42,269 nt of DNA from Rubricoccaceae bacterium (lineage in GTDB: Bacteria; Bacteroidota; Rhodothermia; Rhodothermales; Rubricoccaceae). Every line of letters starts with the position of its first letter. Position 1 is the stretch's first letter. The translations under genes and the position numbers were made by a program. Below the pieces are notes generated by a model. It had not been told where the DNA came from and ran no database searches. It was given only the letters and a program-made list of their open reading frames with translations. The stretch covers positions 6,779-49,047 of the forward strand of contig JAHEJB010000003.1 of assembly GCA_024639085.1 (NCBI GenBank), read 5' to 3'. Of the stretch, positions 7,112 through 14,046 are shown one piece after another.

Positions 7112-7558
7112 CTAGATCATCTTCCACATGACGTAGTGCGCCCCGATCCCTTCGATATCAAACTCGGGGCCGATTGTCTGTAAGCCAAGGCGTTTGTAAA
7201 AGTCCAGCGCGCCGATGCGGGCGTTGCACCACAGGAGGTCGGAATCGTGGACCTGGACGTGTTGGAAGCACAATTTCAGCAACTGCCGCCCGTAGCCTAA
7301 CCCACGAGTTTCAGGAGTTGTTGCCATCCCACGCAAACGGAACGATCCTTTGTTGGCCAAATGGTTGATGTACGCCTCAGGCGGATCCTCAGGGTAGATC
7401 GTCGCGATGCCAACTAGCTTGTTCTCGTGAAATGCTCCGGCGTGTAGGACATCCGAATGGTCGTCTCCGGGATAGACGAGGCGCTCAGGCGGTTCTCCCG
7501 GACGCAGAATCTGCGCGCGTAACGGGCGGGTTTCAGCGGCGGTGATAGGGCGGACCAT
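7112..7558 (-). CDS. GNAT-family N-acetyltransferase
   Basis: This 148-residue acetyltransferase transfers acetyl from acetyl-CoA to an unknown amine. The acetyl-CoA-binding motif A is seen as RGMATTPETRGLGYGRQLL (about 74-92), with the Q/R-x-x-G-x-G/A core as RGLGYG. Motif B follows as ARIGALDFYKRLGL. The length matches a single GNAT domain. The substrate cannot be inferred. It sits upstream of the VanZ-like gene with a 47-bp gap from the preferred VanZ start. Confidence 0.87.
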   Translation of the reverse strand: MVRPITAAETRPLRAQILRPGEPPERLVYPGDDHSDVLHAGAFHENKLVGIATIYPEDPPEAYINHLANKGSFRLRGMATTPETRGLGYGRQLLKLCFQHVQVHDSDLLWCNARIGALDFYKRLGLQTIGPEFDIEGIGAHYVMWKMI

Positions 7559-7580: not shown

Positions 7581-7916
7581 CTAGGCGCACGAAAGGAAGA
7601 AAACTAAAAACAGGAGAACGTAGCCGATGAGGAATACGGCGAACGAACCAATGCATGCCAGAACGGCGACGCGCGTGGTCCGCTTCCACAGATACAATCC
7701 TGTTGAAACCAATCCGCAGATCACACTCAGCCCTGTCCACACACCAAGCGTGAGATAGAGTCCGTCGTCACTTTGGCAGGCGGCGGCTGTGAGGTAGAGC
7801 AGCATCCGACCGGCCTGGTGCAGCACGCCAAATACAATCCCCGATCCGATCAGGATGCCCGCTGCAGAAAGAAAAAGTTTGAGCGTGATTGATTTGGGTG
7901 GAAGGTCACTAGCCAC
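7581..7916 (-). CDS. Small membrane protein, last gene of the SPFH/zinc-ribbon cluster
   Basis: This hydrophobic protein is about 111 residues and has three predicted membrane segments: LFLSAAGILIGSGIVFGVL, LTLGVWTGLSVICGLVSTGLYL and VLACIGSFAVFLIGYVLLFLVFF. I do not recognise a family. The frame is open up to a TTG at 7958, which would give 125 residues. A GTG at 7916 overlaps the stop codon of the upstream gene by eight bases, and I prefer it because it gives a tight translational junction. The protein ends in SCA. Loop residues such as CQSDDG resemble nothing diagnostic. A role with its upstream neighbours is inferred from the unbroken gene spacing only. Confidence 0.65.
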   Translation of the reverse strand: MASDLPPKSITLKLFLSAAGILIGSGIVFGVLHQAGRMLLYLTAAACQSDDGLYLTLGVWTGLSVICGLVSTGLYLWKRTTRVAVLACIGSFAVFLIGYVLLFLVFFLSCA

Positions 7917-8235
7917 AAGCCACAACGAGAAGCCCGAACGAGAGTAGAAGCGCAACAATATTTAGCCCAACCAGCAGCGCGAACGTAGCAAGCGTCGTGC
8001 GCTTGGACTTCTGGCGAACAAACGTAATGGCCGTGTAAACCCCAATACCAAGGCACAGTGCCAGCCAAGTGTATATCGCCATGTTGACGCCGCTCACGTT
8101 CCGACAGCCCAGCGTCGAGAAGCCGAGCATCAAGAGTCCCACGAGGCCAACGGCGAACGTCACAAGAAGTGTTGCCGCTACGAGACCAGCATTCTGATTG
8201 GAAGAACGTGGTGGGTTAGGATTTGGCGTTTCCAT
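7909..8235 (-). CDS. Small three-helix membrane protein next to the zinc-ribbon gene
   Basis: This 108-residue protein has a polar, Pro/Asn-rich N-terminus (METPNPNPPRSSNQNAG) followed by three membrane segments: LVAATLLVTFAVGLVGLLML, MAIYTWLALCLGIGVYTAI and LATFALLVGLNIVALLLSFGLL. There is no recognised domain. Its ATG shares one base with the stop codon of the upstream zinc-ribbon gene (TAATG), so the two are translationally coupled. It resembles the following small membrane protein in size and helix layout, which suggests two related subunits or an old duplication, but residue identity is too low to claim this. Confidence 0.72.
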   Translation of the reverse strand: METPNPNPPRSSNQNAGLVAATLLVTFAVGLVGLLMLGFSTLGCRNVSGVNMAIYTWLALCLGIGVYTAITFVRQKSKRTTLATFALLVGLNIVALLLSFGLLVVACG

Positions 8236-9320
8236 TAGCCCCCGCTGTTTGCGAGGAATACGATCAGGACAATCATAAGGATGATAGCGAGGACCGCCAT
8301 CGCGATCTTGATGGCGCTGTAGGGCCGCTCACCCTGTACGCCGCCAGTTTCCGCATCCACGGTGAAACGGTATGTCTTGGCACCGTACTGGTACGAGCTG
8401 ATCCAGATGGGCAGGAGGATATGCTTGTATGTGACGTCGTAGTAACGCGTGTTTCGCGTCATGATGCGTTGTTCGTCTCCGCCTATGTCGTTTCGGATGG
8501 CCTGATCGATGCGCGGAGCCATGATCGTGGTTGCCGCTTGAAAGCCGTCCTCCAATCCAACGGTGTAGTGCTCAGTCCGGAAGCCCGCGAGGTACGCGTC
8601 GGCGTAGGGAACGAGCCTTTGCAACGCATCGGCTGGCACGCTCGGGCGGTGGATTTTGGGCAAAGAGTTCGTGGCCTCCACAAGCACGTCATCAAAGTCA
8701 ACGTACACACGACCGAACGCGGGACTCCAGGATGTCTTCCTGACCTGTCGTGTTCGCATTTGCGACCGACCGTTCACCATCTGTGTGTACGTTTCCGTCG
8801 TGTAGTAGTACGTGCCGCGCTGGCCCGTGTAGTTCGTGATCGTCCGGGCATCGTACGTCCAATGAGGGATGTACATGCCGTTCAGGCCGCGTGCCGTTCC
8901 GGAATGCTGCTTGAGCTTGCCTGGCGCGAACCAGCGCCCCTTAAGCCACTCACGAAAGGCCTTCTGCGCATCCGGTTCCGTGATCTTGAACGGGAGGAGG
9001 CTTTGGGGCTTGATGGACCTCGTTGACGCGCCTTCAAGGACAACCGGCGATCCACAAAACGCGCACACTGCGCTCGTCTCATCATTCGGCAAGATCGTTT
9101 CAGCCGCACAGTTTTTGCACTTCGCTGTGATGGTTTCAACGGTGTCAACCTGGCCTTTCAGAGCCTGTACAGCCGCATTGAAGTCCATTTCACCCGCAGC
9201 AGGCTCCTGCCCGCTGATGCGGTTTTCTACACCGCAATACGGGCACACCAACGATTCCGTGCCTGGCCCGAACTCAAGGTCGGCACCACAGTTCGTGCAG
9301 GCGAACTGGCGTAATTCCAT
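8235..9320 (-). CDS. Zinc-ribbon protein with C-terminal membrane anchor (YdjG-like)
   Basis: This 361-residue protein begins with two double-CxxC zinc ribbons: Cys8/Cys11 with Cys26/Cys29, and Cys68/Cys71 with Cys86/Cys89. A Tyr/Thr-rich central region follows (about 100-330), then one membrane helix (about 336-357). Proteins of this type are often mislabelled 'primosomal protein N' / helicase', but no helicase motif is present. Zinc ribbon plus C-terminal anchor plus an SPFH neighbour matches Bacillus subtilis YdjG, part of the pspA-ydjGHI envelope-stress operon in which YdjG helps recruit the SPFH protein YdjI to the membrane. The same role here is an inference. It follows the SPFH gene by 95 bp. 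Confidence 0.8.
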   Translation of the reverse strand: MELRQFACTNCGADLEFGPGTESLVCPYCGVENRISGQEPAAGEMDFNAAVQALKGQVDTVETITAKCKNCAAETILPNDETSAVCAFCGSPVVLEGASTRSIKPQSLLPFKITEPDAQKAFREWLKGRWFAPGKLKQHSGTARGLNGMYIPHWTYDARTITNYTGQRGTYYYTTETYTQMVNGRSQMRTRQVRKTSWSPAFGRVYVDFDDVLVEATNSLPKIHRPSVPADALQRLVPYADAYLAGFRTEHYTVGLEDGFQAATTIMAPRIDQAIRNDIGGDEQRIMTRNTRYYDVTYKHILLPIWISSYQYGAKTYRFTVDAETGGVQGERPYSAIKIAMAVLAIILMIVLIVFLANSGG

Positions 9321-9415
9321 TCTCGAAGGTCTGAGAGGGTGATAGGGTGAGGGGAAGAGGGAGGAGCGTCGATGATGGTCCTCTCAAACCCTCACTCCCT
9401 CAAACATCCAGACGT

Positions 9416-10537
9416 CTACGCTGTCGGCTCGTCCGACGGCGGAGGTGGGGCAGCAGGCGCTGGTGGAGGAACAGCAGCGAACAATTCGCCAAGAGCTTCG
9501 ACCTGTCCTGCCGGTTGCCAGTCTTCCATGCCCTGAATCCAGACCATGCTGTCCTTCGTGAGTGAGCCACTCTGGGCCTGACTCCGAAGCGTCGTCATGT
9601 CGTACGGGCCGCGCGTTTCGCCATCGACGGCAACGTGAAACTGGATGGCGGCTGGAGCGGGTGGAGGTGTGCCAGTAGAAGGCTGCCCCATCGTCTGGCC
9701 CATCTGGTTGGCCATCGCGAAGCCCATTCCCATCCCCATACCTTGACCGGCACCACTTCCGGGAGTCTCCGCTGCTTTTTCCATCGCCTGAGCGGCCTGG
9801 AACTGCGTGTAGGCTCCGAGATCTCCCACGATGCCCATGCTTGTACGCTTGTCCAGCATTTCCTCGACAGCGGGAGGGAGGGAGATATTCTCAACGAGCA
9901 AAGAAGTGATGTCGATGCCGTAGCCGTTGAATTCCTCTTCGATCTTGGCTCTGACAAATTCGCCGAGTTCGCTGTAGTTCGCGGCGAGGTCAAGCGCGGC
10001 CAGTTTGCTCTCCGCGAGTACGTCCGTGAAGCGAGAAACGATCAGATTGCGAAGTTGATCGGACAGATCATCAGTCTGAAAGTGGCCATCTGTGCCCACG
10101 ATTTCGCGGATCAGCGTAGCCGGGTCGCCTGCCTTGAAGGCATACGTGCCGAAGGCTCTCAGCCGAATCGGGCCGAACTCAGGATCGCGGAGCATAATCG
10201 GGTTCTTGGTCCCCCACTTTTGGTCCGTAAACTGCCTTGTAGAGACGTAATAGACCTCTGCCTTAAATGGACTTTCAAAGCCATGCTTCCATCCTTGAAG
10301 CGTAGAAAGTAGGGGGATGTTTGCGGTCTCCAACGTGTAGGTGCCCGGCGGGAAGACATCCGCCAACTGCCCTTCGTCTACAAAAACAGCTTCCTGGCCT
10401 TCGCGGACGATGAGCTTCGCGCCGTACTTGATTTCGTTGTTATAGCGTTCAAAACGGCGTACGAGCGTATCGTCTGAGTCGTCGGTCCATTCGATGATGT
10501 CGATGAACTCACCGCGGATCTTGTCAAAAATGCCCAT
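9416..10537 (-). CDS. SPFH-domain protein with C-terminal GYF_2 domain (YdjI-like)
   Basis: This 373-residue protein has an SPFH/band-7 fold over about 1-250, without an N-terminal membrane segment, starting MGIFDKIRGEFIDIIEW. A Gly/Met/Gln-rich linker follows (about 262-295; GMGMGMGFAMANQMGQTMGQ). A GYF_2-type domain comes next (about 300-352), seen as the GETRGPYDM and WIQGMEDWQPA motifs, and the protein ends in a proline-rich tail. SPFH proteins oligomerise and organise membrane regions. This soluble SPFH-GYF class is the type called 'virion core protein/YdjI' and travels with zinc-ribbon membrane proteins, as here. It is the first gene of the minus-strand cluster and diverges from the patatin gene. 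No PspA gene is adjacent. Confidence 0.88.
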   Translation of the reverse strand: MGIFDKIRGEFIDIIEWTDDSDDTLVRRFERYNNEIKYGAKLIVREGQEAVFVDEGQLADVFPPGTYTLETANIPLLSTLQGWKHGFESPFKAEVYYVSTRQFTDQKWGTKNPIMLRDPEFGPIRLRAFGTYAFKAGDPATLIREIVGTDGHFQTDDLSDQLRNLIVSRFTDVLAESKLAALDLAANYSELGEFVRAKIEEEFNGYGIDITSLLVENISLPPAVEEMLDKRTSMGIVGDLGAYTQFQAAQAMEKAAETPGSGAGQGMGMGMGFAMANQMGQTMGQPSTGTPPPAPAAIQFHVAVDGETRGPYDMTTLRSQAQSGSLTKDSMVWIQGMEDWQPAGQVEALGELFAAVPPPAPAAPPPPSDEPTA

Positions 10538-10701: not shown

Positions 10702-11937
10702 ATGTCCCCCATGCAAGTCATCGATCACGAACGAACTGGCGCTGTTGGCCTAGCGCTGGCGGGCGGCGGCCCGGAAGGCGCTGTCTATGAAATTGGAGCT
10801 CTACGAGCACTAGATGACGCAATGAGCGGCATCAACTTCTCGGAGGTCCCAATCATCGTCGGCGTTTCCGCTGGGGCATTCGTCGGTTCCTGTCTCGCGA
10901 ATGGAATCTCCACAGCTCACTTAGTTCGCTCCGTGATTCACGAGGAGCCCGGCGAGCATCCGTTCCGCCCCGAACTCTTCATGACGCCCGCGGTGCGTGA
11001 ATTCGTCAAGCGCGGGATTTCGATTCCGAAGCTGATTTTTGAGTCGATCGGGCATTCGCTGAAGGAAGGCGAGCCGCCGGGCGACTTCATCACGTCGATG
11101 GTCAATAGGCTTGGGCGGGCACTGCCGGTCGGCATGTTTGATAACAGACCGCTTCGCAAGTACCTCGAATCCGTTTTCTCCGCTACGGGACGCACGAACA
11201 ACTTCCGCGAGTTATCCACGCAGCTCTACGTCGTTGCTGCCGACCTAGACGCAGGTGAGGCCATTCGCTTCGGTGACGAAGGGTTTCAGGACATCCCAAT
11301 TTCACTGGCCGTGCAGGCGTCCACAGCACTCCCAGGACTCTATCCACCTGTTGAGATCAACGGCCGCTTTTACGTAGATGGCGTCCTTTTGAAGACACTA
11401 CACGCCTCCGTGGCGCTGGATAAAGGTGCTGAGTTAGTCATTTGTGTTAATCCGCTAGTGCCCGTTGATACGGACGGAGCGGTGGAGCAGGGGGTGATGA
11501 AGCGGGGCAATCTGCTTGATCGCGGTATGCCAACGGTGCTCTCGCAGACCTTCCGAACGCTCATCTATTCGAGGCTGGGAACCGGACTGGCGGCTTATCA
11601 GGATCGCTACGAGGGGGCGGATGTCGTTCTGTTCGAGCCTAGACGCGACGACTACACGATGTTCTTTCGCAACGTGTTTTCGTTTTCAGCGCGGCAGGAA
11701 GTCTGTGAACACGCATACCAGTCGACCATGGAAATCCTGTCGGACCGTCGCGAGGAACTCGCACCGATCCTTGCGCGCCACGGCATCACGCTACGGGAAG
11801 ACATGCTGGACCGTCCGACTCACGATTTGTGGGAAAGCGTCGGGTTAGGTGATCCTTCCGACCGAATCATGCCCTCCACCGTCACCACCCGCGATCTCCG
11901 CGACGCGCTGGATGAGTTGGATGAGATGCTGGGGTAA
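10702..11937 (+). CDS. Patatin-like phospholipase
   Basis: This 411-residue protein is predicted to be a serine acyl hydrolase acting on lipids. The nucleophile elbow is GVSAG with Ser56, and the dyad Asp is in YVDGVLLK (about 226). The glycine-rich oxyanion segment reads GGGPEG (about 21-26), where most family members have an Arg at the fifth position; here it is Glu. No signal peptide or membrane segment is seen, so a cytosolic or peripheral location is likely. The C-terminal 150 residues have no recognised domain. Start choices are ATG at 10702 or 10711. The gene is divergent from the SPFH gene (164-bp gap) and converges on the PP2C gene with a 6-bp gap. Confidence 0.87.
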   Translation: MSPMQVIDHERTGAVGLALAGGGPEGAVYEIGALRALDDAMSGINFSEVPIIVGVSAGAFVGSCLANGISTAHLVRSVIHEEPGEHPFRPELFMTPAVREFVKRGISIPKLIFESIGHSLKEGEPPGDFITSMVNRLGRALPVGMFDNRPLRKYLESVFSATGRTNNFRELSTQLYVVAADLDAGEAIRFGDEGFQDIPISLAVQASTALPGLYPPVEINGRFYVDGVLLKTLHASVALDKGAELVICVNPLVPVDTDGAVEQGVMKRGNLLDRGMPTVLSQTFRTLIYSRLGTGLAAYQDRYEGADVVLFEPRRDDYTMFFRNVFSFSARQEVCEHAYQSTMEILSDRREELAPILARHGITLREDMLDRPTHDLWESVGLGDPSDRIMPSTVTTRDLRDALDELDEMLG

Positions 11938-11943
11938 TAGAGT

Positions 11944-12672
11944 TTACACAACCCAAACTCCCAGCGCCGAGTAGTTGTCATTGTTTGGCGGCACACGCTG
12001 GAGGAGTCGCTGCTCCATTCGTTCAATCCACGAATCGGGGTTGTCGGCAACCTGCAGATCACTTTCCATCTCGGGCTCAAGCACGTACTCCCAGAATCCA
12101 TCTGAGCATAGCAGGAAGGCGTCGCCGGGGCCGACGTGGAGCGGCTCACCAACATCCGGCATAGGCTCGCCGGTTCGTCCGAGGGCGCGAAGCAGCCGGT
12201 TTCGGTCGGGGTGCTCGCGGATGTCTTTCGTTTTAATCTCTCCGGCCTCAACGAGCGCCTGAGGAATGCTGTGGTCGTTCGTTTGGTCAATGACTTGGCC
12301 TTCGCGAAAAACGTAGAGGCGGGAGTCTCCCACGTGGACCCACCGCGCAAAACCATCGGAGGCTACCAAGACCGTAATGGTGGTTTTCATTGGCGATGCG
12401 TCCGCCCGCATTTGTTGTTGCTCATGGACGGCGCGTTGCGCCTCGTTGATATAGTGCCGCAGTGCGCCCTCGGAGCGCCCGAGCGTGTCATTGAACGCGC
12501 TGATAGCCGCGTCCACTGCGGCGCGCGAGGCCACTTCTCCCGCCGCATGTCCGCCGAGGCCATCCGCCAGTGCCCAGCATCCCATACCGTTCGCTTCGAC
12601 GAAGGCAGTTACGTCCTGGTTGTTTGGTCGGCCGCCGGGTCTGGAAAGTGGGCGACTTGTTAGAAATGGCAT
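11944..12672 (-). CDS. PP2C-family serine/threonine protein phosphatase
   Basis: This 242-residue metal-dependent protein phosphatase is of the bacterial Stp/PrpC type. Diagnostic motifs are PNNQD near the N-terminus, WALADGLGGHAAGEVAS with the metal-binding Asp-Gly, VHVGDSRLYVF, TNDHSIPQ, and DAFLLCSDGFWEYV with a metal-binding Asp. It is predicted to remove phosphate from Ser/Thr of proteins in the cytosol, opposing Hanks-type kinases; none is encoded in this window. The open frame extends to 12723, but the ATG at 12672 gives the family's usual N-terminus. It converges on the patatin gene and diverges from the carboxypeptidase gene. Confidence 0.9.
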   Translation of the reverse strand: MPFLTSRPLSRPGGRPNNQDVTAFVEANGMGCWALADGLGGHAAGEVASRAAVDAAISAFNDTLGRSEGALRHYINEAQRAVHEQQQMRADASPMKTTITVLVASDGFARWVHVGDSRLYVFREGQVIDQTNDHSIPQALVEAGEIKTKDIREHPDRNRLLRALGRTGEPMPDVGEPLHVGPGDAFLLCSDGFWEYVLEPEMESDLQVADNPDSWIERMEQRLLQRVPPNNDNYSALGVWVV

Positions 12673-12829: not shown

Positions 12830-12945
12830 GTTAAGCCAGATATATGTTCAGCGCAAAGGCCTTTCCTGGAAGTTCTTCCTTCAACCGTTCGTTTACGCAC
12901 CATTGTCGAATAGCGAACGAGGTTGGCTGGTCCTACCTTTTCAAC

Positions 12946-14046
12946 ATGCATCTATCTGAACTTGATCTTTCTGGACTTCACTTTCGATCATCGGCGGAGG
13001 TTTTCAACGAATTAAAATCAGCCTGCGACACCAATCCAGACCTTGCTCAGTTCAAGGTGATCGGGCAAAGTGAGCAGGGACGACCGATTGCAGGAGTCAC
13101 GCTTGGGTACGGGCCCCGACTCGTAACGCTGATCGCCGGAGCGCATGCGGACGAACCTGTTGGTCCGGAGACGCTGCGAACATTTGTTTTGGAAGGCTTG
13201 GCTGCCCGGGACTGGCTGGCCGAGGGGGAAGGGCTCCACGCGTTATTCGAGCAGTTCACGTTCAGGATCATTCCGCACATCAACCCGGATGGCGAGGCAC
13301 GCAACCTGCTGTGGATTGAACAGTGGCCCGACCCCGGAGCAGGTCCGGTGCAGGTCTTGGCAGCCTATCTGGCTCATCGAGTGCGCGAATTGCCGGGCGA
13401 CGACATTGAGTTTGGCTACCCGGAGATGCGAGCTGAGAATCAGGCCGCGAGTCAGTTTCTGTTTGATGGTGAGCCGATCTCGCTGCACATGAGCCTGCAC
13501 GGGATGGGATTCTCGGAAGGAGCCCTCTTGCTAATTGAGAAGCACTGGGGAGGTGAAGCTGCGGAACTCAAGGCGAGCTTTGAGAAAGCCGCTTCAGAAG
13601 CAGGCCTTCGTTTACACGACCACGACAGGAGCGGCGTTAAGGGCTTTCGTTATTACGGCCCTGGATTTTGGTCGACGCCGGAGGGAAGAGCGATGCGGGC
13701 GCACTTCGAGGACATCAATGACGACGAGACGGCCGCCAAGTTCTTTCTTTCCTCCATGGAAATGGCGGTGCAGACGGGGCCTGACCCGAAGACAGGCCGG
13801 ACGCCGTTGAGCCTCGTAACCGAGTTGCCATTGTTCGTCTTGGATGCTGAATACGACCACGAGCCGGGCGTGCCTGGACTCCTCAACCAGTTCAAGGAAA
13901 AACTGCCGGAACTGACGCTCGCGGCAAAGAACGGCAAGGGCATGGCCGAACACGCGAAGCCTTACGGTCTGCGCCCACTGGGTCTGGAAACAGCCGTACG
14001 GCTCCAGTTGCAGACGATCGAAATGGGGTTGGAGGCTACGAGGTAG
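12946..14046 (+). CDS. M14-family zinc carboxypeptidase-like protein
   Basis: This protein is about 366 residues and is a predicted zinc metallopeptidase of the M14 (carboxypeptidase/succinylglutamate-desuccinylase) superfamily. Zinc ligands H-x-x-E are seen as GAHADEPVG (His67, Glu70), followed by PHINPDGEARN, the usual family sequence after the substrate pocket. The third zinc ligand is likely in SLHMSLHGMG (His181 or 185), and the catalytic Glu is probably in VTELPLF. No signal peptide is seen, so it may act in the cytosol. The frame is open from 12844, but the ATG at 12946 (MHLSELDLSGLHF) gives a sensible start. Its true substrate is not readable from sequence. Confidence 0.83.
   Translation: MHLSELDLSGLHFRSSAEVFNELKSACDTNPDLAQFKVIGQSEQGRPIAGVTLGYGPRLVTLIAGAHADEPVGPETLRTFVLEGLAARDWLAEGEGLHALFEQFTFRIIPHINPDGEARNLLWIEQWPDPGAGPVQVLAAYLAHRVRELPGDDIEFGYPEMRAENQAASQFLFDGEPISLHMSLHGMGFSEGALLLIEKHWGGEAAELKASFEKAASEAGLRLHDHDRSGVKGFRYYGPGFWSTPEGRAMRAHFEDINDDETAAKFFLSSMEMAVQTGPDPKTGRTPLSLVTELPLFVLDAEYDHEPGVPGLLNQFKEKLPELTLAAKNGKGMAEHAKPYGLRPLGLETAVRLQLQTIEMGLEATR

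Follow-up and report, generated by a model that had tools for sequence, protein, structure and literature searches.

This work examines a four-gene locus in Rubricoccaceae bacterium (GCA_024639085.1, contig JAHEJB010000003.1), where a stretch of 42,269 nucleotides (nt), referred to here as the window, was analyzed. Four minus-strand open reading frames (ORFs) lie in a row and encode an SPFH-GYF protein, a zinc-ribbon protein (referred to here as ZnR), and two small membrane proteins, smp1 and smp2 (Table 1). An earlier note on this DNA had likened the first two to YdjI and YdjG of the Bacillus pspA-ydjGHI operon and had described the small genes as tightly coupled. The positions behind the second claim are confirmed: the ZnR stop and the smp1 start have one base in common (TAATG), and smp1 and smp2 overlap by 8 bases, an overlap that depends on the GTG start of smp2 (an alternative TTG start at 7958 is likewise open). 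Hydropathy analysis gave three helices for each small protein, one C-terminal helix for ZnR, and none for the SPFH protein. Codon usage in both small genes is native, with the observed score reached by 2/1000 and 7/1000 random-synonymous versions, and this codon choice, together with the gene layout, suggests that the small genes are real and native.

The likeness to YdjI and YdjG proved to be true homology, on the grounds of a full-length YdjG match, a ydjI match in Bacillus, and alignments. By its sequence, the SPFH-GYF protein falls in the YdjI subfamily (PF13421, Band_7_1); two Bacillus genomes yielded a single match apiece (32% identity, 152 to 154 bits), and the one in Bacillus spizizenii is ydjI by position. 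The YdjG reference was obtained by using a ydjG primer published in PMC8581546 as a pattern, which led to the pspA-ydjGHI operon of B. spizizenii. ZnR aligns with Bacillus YdjG over its full length (residues 6 to 361; 123 bits, expect value [E] of 1e-36, 24% identity) and is a YdjG homolog. According to PMC11237479, YdjG consists of a pair of zinc ribbons, a domain related to YpeB, and a helix. Of these, the ribbons and the helix are confirmed in ZnR, as the eight zinc-ribbon cysteines are invariant in an alignment of 15 sequences and the AlphaFold2 model (mean predicted local distance difference test [pLDDT] score of 78.6) has a helix at residues 336 to 359. For the domain related to YpeB, the only hint is a PepSY/YPEB match below threshold (E of 0.2). 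A Pfam scan of ZnR returned one match above the cutoff, DUF7815 (29 versus 25 bits), along with many weak zinc-ribbon matches.

The SPFH-GYF protein does not carry the C-terminal zinc ribbon of YdjI and has a GYF_2 domain instead. Among 14 aligned SPFH proteins, including that of the window, the tail is GYF in 10, SHOCT-like in L033, L034, and L037, and a zinc ribbon in YdjI. The three tails scanned with Pfam were confirmed as GYF (window), SHOCT (L033), and zinc ribbon (YdjI). PMC7159879, in which SPFH, GYF, and bacteria occur together, does not describe an SPFH-GYF protein in its accessible portion.

Table 1. Features of the SPFH-ZnR locus and adjoining DNA (window coordinates)
Feature	Position	Strand	Remarks
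SPFH-GYF protein, YdjI-type	9416..10537	-	373 aa; linker and tail rich in proline; no hydrophobic helix
Band_7_1 in SPFH-GYF	about 9830-10462	-	Pfam, 341 bits
GYF_2 in SPFH-GYF	about 9491-9637	-	Pfam, 63 bits
SPFH-ZnR spacer	9321..9415	-	95 bases, hairpin-like
ZnR, YdjG homolog	8235..9320	-	361 aa; beta-rich middle domain
Two CxxC..CxxC zinc ribbons of ZnR	about 9234-9299 and 9054-9119	-	
Single C-terminal transmembrane helix of ZnR	about 8244-8315	-	Predicted from hydropathy
Small three-helix membrane protein 1 (smp1)	7909..8235	-	108 aa; Cys44 and Cys107 family-conserved
Small three-helix membrane protein 2 (smp2)	7581..7916	-	111 aa, GTG start; Cys47 and Cys110 family-conserved
GNAT acetyltransferase	7112..7558	-	22 bases downstream of the small genes

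Conservation of the pair was gauged in a phylum sample of 395 genomes, with SPFH counted at an E of 1e-20 or better. ZnR was found in 16 genomes and SPFH in 55, and SPFH is present in all 16 ZnR genomes (p = 2.4e-15 by Fisher's test, with no correction for kinship). Loci were then read in 16 relatives, namely the 15 other ZnR genomes and G002, the sole same-genus genome in the sample. SPFH and ZnR lie in one gene run in 13 of these (12 directly adjacent, and G075 with one gene between); G313, counted as adjacent, has ZnR-like genes that are distant (E of about 1e-6). The gene that follows ZnR varies among the relatives, except for one shared by L029 and L030. Four of 12 matching plasmid records were opened, and these place SPFH and ZnR side by side in Paracoccus, Comamonas, and Vibrio and show an SPFH-ZnR-TPM order in Enterococcus. 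No pspA is annotated in the four plasmid stretches, for which the gene table is incomplete. Since relatives and plasmids have the pair and no pspA beside it, a pair that lacks an adjoining pspA is not rare, and the lack of pspA and ydjH at the window locus is not special. What is conserved at the locus is thus the SPFH/YdjG pair, whose members are neighbors in several phyla.

The small proteins belong to a membrane-protein family that is new to the family libraries searched. Against Pfam and NCBIfam, smp1 and smp2 gave sub-threshold matches only; PHROGs and PADLOC returned nothing of weight, and plasmids gave no match. No TPM domain (PF04536) was listed for either protein at an E of up to 1. 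A search of open-access texts found no literature on these proteins, whose family has no name to search by. A profile built from the two proteins and run at an E of 0.001 against 114 genomes of the order matched only the window's genome and G001, which represents a sister genus (E of 1.4e-9) and in which the protein is incomplete, as the contig begins inside the gene. The G001 protein scores 88 against smp1 and 115 against smp2 (shuffle mean, 33; 0/5000 shuffles in each case). All three members have a Cys after helix 1, a Trp where helix 2 begins, and a Cys as the penultimate residue. Because G001 links to both smp1 and smp2, the three sequences are assigned to one family and the window pair is read as tandem paralogs, a kinship that rests on the third member. 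Thus, where the earlier note had described two unrelated three-helix proteins, the three helices stand, by hydropathy, and the lack of relationship does not.

Compared directly, smp1 and smp2 show weak similarity: their score of 62 was reached by 6/2000 full shuffles and by 10/2000 class-preserving shuffles, and a repeat of the comparison gave 26/5000. Among 99 three-helix control segments, 5 reach 62 with smp1 and 3 with smp2, and the figure for control-control pairs is 62/4902; this control is biased against kinship, as all eight scoring segments came from loci fetched for a small-protein match and related pairs were kept in. In both window proteins, the loop that joins helices 2 and 3 holds a cluster of Lys and Arg residues. 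This loop probably lies inside, which would put both Cys residues outside; from hydropathy and charge, the small proteins probably have the N terminus inside, the C terminus outside, and two outward Cys residues that could form a disulfide. An AlphaFold2 model of smp2 likewise has three helices, at low confidence (pLDDT, 66.7).

More tolerant searches returned many weaker matches. In single-sequence searches of the 395 genomes up to an E of 1, smp1 had matches in 138 genomes and smp2 in 109, own genome included; the best non-self E values were 1.8e-4 (smp1) and 1.3e-3 (smp2), and many matches lay in long or stop-containing frames. The frames at nine loci taken from these matches were read, and none was retained. 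Weak matches of the two-row profile in G000, G003, G004, and G006 (E of 0.016 to 0.09) fell in long frames, and two later profile matches, L132 (G006) and L071, are an NrfD protein and an amino acid permease, not members of the small-protein family. Weaker later profile matches were L062, L063, L066, L054, and L078.

The neighborhood comparison that the earlier note had proposed shows that the small genes are not conserved beside SPFH or ZnR: no homolog adjoins ZnR in any of the 16 relatives. By the note's own criterion, this outcome speaks against its reading, with the caveat that the one outside homolog, in G001, sits at a contig end. In G002, the genes run SPFH, ZnR, GNAT; the gap that separates the last two, as called, is 119 bases and contains no small gene, nor did a profile search find one elsewhere in this assembly (88% complete). 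Four other genomes of the bacterial family (G003 to G006) have SPFH with neither ZnR nor small genes beside it. In G001, the small gene is followed by a glycosyltransferase gene and then by a close homolog of the window's GNAT; SPFH and ZnR had no match in this assembly (88% complete), in which anything upstream of the small gene is lost at the contig end. GNAT is the only demonstrable conserved neighbor of the small genes, and their link to SPFH-ZnR is found in the window and nowhere else among these genomes.

Duplication may be under way at the G002 locus (L035), where GNAT lies beside ZnR (8896-9345) and GNAT homologs or fragments recur at 11991-12308 and 12897-13104 (phmmer E of 1e-38 and 3e-17). 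Small membrane genes of other kinds were also seen near SPFH genes. In L037 (2800-7137) and L117 (564-4846), which belong to one genus, SPFH is followed by two ZnR-like genes with a transmembrane helix and by a third gene that looks rich in cysteine by eye; the next gene encodes a 96-aa protein, with three hydrophobic segments, that the small-protein profile does not match. In L124 (3062-4701), a gene that matches only the linker and GYF part of the SPFH query lies 8 bases ahead of a gene whose 115-aa product has four hydrophobic segments, a further case of a small membrane gene in such a position.

The earlier note had also called the locus PspA-less and free of a TPM-domain YdjH. This holds for the operon, where the ORF list and a domain scan gave neither, but not for the genome, which encodes PspA/IM30 and TPM proteins elsewhere (assembly 88.7% complete, 235 contigs). 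The search for pspA that the note had recommended retrieved one PspA/IM30 protein on another contig (54.5 bits; cutoff, 33.9), which lies far below the classical PspA equivalog cutoff (25 versus 243 bits); a PDB sequence search with this protein found nothing. The genome has four TPM matches, one on contig C108 and three on the window's contig; the latter lie before the window start on the opposite strand, the nearest being 12.3 kb from the small genes and 14.2 kb from SPFH. TPM is present in 15 of 17 genomes tested. As for PspA, 12 of the 17 ZnR-bearing genomes have a match at 1e-3, and 10 have one above the cutoff; none adjoins ZnR, and the nearest is 7.3 kb away (G042). The genome's PspA gene lies in L038 (626-2955); the genes after it encode a 164-aa protein that resembles the C-terminal half of PspA (by eye) and a second protein that has two hydrophobic segments and looks long and helical. 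L103 (3-2515), on the window's contig, is a run of three TPM genes beside SUF-like genes (by eye); a similar run occurs in G002 (L104), and a run of two TPM genes occurs in G227 (L105).

For Bacillus subtilis, PMC8581546 reports that YdjI requires both YdjG and YdjH to form membrane foci, that PspA needs YdjI, that YdjI is likely soluble, and that in two-hybrid tests YdjH contacts YdjI and PspA and YdjG contacts YdjH. We consider it probable that the window locus combines a conserved membrane-scaffold module of two genes, SPFH and YdjG, with two small membrane proteins that are specific to the lineage and stand at its end. By homology, the SPFH protein would form a cytoplasmic oligomer; as an extension from Bacillus, the one helix of the YdjG homolog would tether this soluble oligomer to the inner membrane, where the assembly would organize or protect stressed membrane. 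GYF domains bind proline-rich peptides, and for this reason the GYF tail is proposed as a client adaptor: the exchangeable C-terminal adaptor of the SPFH protein (GYF, SHOCT, or zinc ribbon) probably picks up different clients. The small proteins are probably cotranslated with ZnR. If they act with the module, they would be optional membrane partners rather than an obligatory substitute for YdjH; they may be extra membrane subunits or neighbors that have no role in the module.

Several observations weigh against this interpretation. The pair is not obligatory, as 39 of the 55 SPFH genomes have no ZnR match (in two of these, G278 and G188, distant ZnR-like genes adjoin SPFH), and in G021, G042, and G139, SPFH is on a different contig than ZnR. 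No solved structure in the PDB matched the ZnR model significantly (best E of 0.01; template modeling score, 0.12), the best matches being beta-barrel pore toxins, via long hairpins. Finally, in the B. subtilis two-hybrid tests it is YdjH that contacts YdjI, while YdjG contacts YdjH, so anchoring by YdjG in a locus that has no YdjH is assumed.

Alternatively, the small genes could belong to the GNAT side and have come to lie beside the SPFH module merely through local rearrangement. The gene order in G001, where SPFH and ZnR had no match, the 22 bases that separate the small genes from GNAT in the window, and the repeated GNAT homologs in G002 all favor such an origin, which we regard as possible but doubtful: the G001 contig starts inside the small gene of an incomplete assembly, G002 keeps GNAT without small genes, and the TAATG and 8-base overlaps suggest that the small genes are translationally coupled to ZnR. 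It is also unlikely that all these genes together form a Psp response tied to PspA, as in pspA-ydjGHI, to which a pspA gene at a separate site would contribute in trans. The PspA/IM30 gene on another contig and the PspA proteins above the cutoff in 10 of the 17 ZnR-bearing genomes would fit such an arrangement, but 7 of the 17 have none above it, including G053 and G142, which are listed as 100% complete and have the pair and no PspA match. Moreover, PspA is never next to ZnR, and the genome's own PspA scores far below the classical equivalog.

The earlier note had suggested a variant membrane-stress platform without PspA in which the small proteins replace YdjH; on this view, they would serve as its anchor or sensor at the membrane. 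Position speaks for this: the small genes overlap the ZnR gene and sit after SPFH-ZnR, where the Enterococcus plasmid has a TPM gene, and in the two-hybrid tests cited above both YdjI and PspA are contacted by YdjH. We nevertheless judge replacement to be improbable, given that no small-gene homolog lies beside ZnR in the 16 relatives (same genus included) and that neither protein had a TPM match at an E of up to 1; 108 to 111 aa with three helices leave little room for a TPM domain of 125 positions. In relatives, the pair persists without such small proteins and no TPM gene was noticed at its side, so there is no clear need for a replacement, and the genome encodes TPM proteins at other sites. 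A further reading, in which the small proteins are dedicated receptors of an SPFH-GYF ring, is highly improbable; their proline-bearing cytoplasmic N termini (PNPPRS and LPPKS) would bind GYF, the outward Cys pair would sense redox or envelope stress, and the sensor of a Psp-like platform would be swapped between lineages (TPM or small proteins).

Stress-sigma control and a membrane-stress function are features of pspA-ydjGHI; at the window locus, a scan for sigma-70-type promoters performed no better than shuffles, other promoter types being outside the scan. The fold of the SPFH-ZnR spacer is likewise no better than shuffles (z of -1.1; 28/200 equally good). The corresponding spacer in G002 (L035, 7616-7696) has a different sequence and also a hairpin, which beats shuffles (z of -2.5). 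A patatin-like gene (10702-11937) is divergent from SPFH in both the window and G002; its match to CBASS_lipase is far below the cutoff.

Set against known systems, the window locus is a module of a known type that carries an accessory pair specific to its lineage. Like Bacillus pspA-ydjGHI, it has homologs of YdjG (24% identity) and YdjI (32%) in one gene run. The window operon, however, has neither pspA nor the TPM gene ydjH, places SPFH first rather than last, ends its SPFH protein in GYF rather than a zinc ribbon, and has two extra small membrane genes. The Enterococcus gallinarum plasmid is closer in layout, with SPFH first, a YdjG-like gene second, a membrane gene third, and no pspA among the annotated genes shown; its third gene, in contrast, encodes a TPM-domain protein where the window has small three-helix proteins. 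The SPFH-SHOCT proteins described in PMC3581485 share the PF13421 domain and the position of the exchangeable C-terminal domain, which is SHOCT in those proteins and GYF in the window. In all, the finding adds a small membrane-protein family absent from the libraries searched, and the comparison suggests that the SPFH/YdjG pair is a stable core to which pspA and YdjH are optional partners, a view that matters for reading Psp-like systems outside Bacillus.

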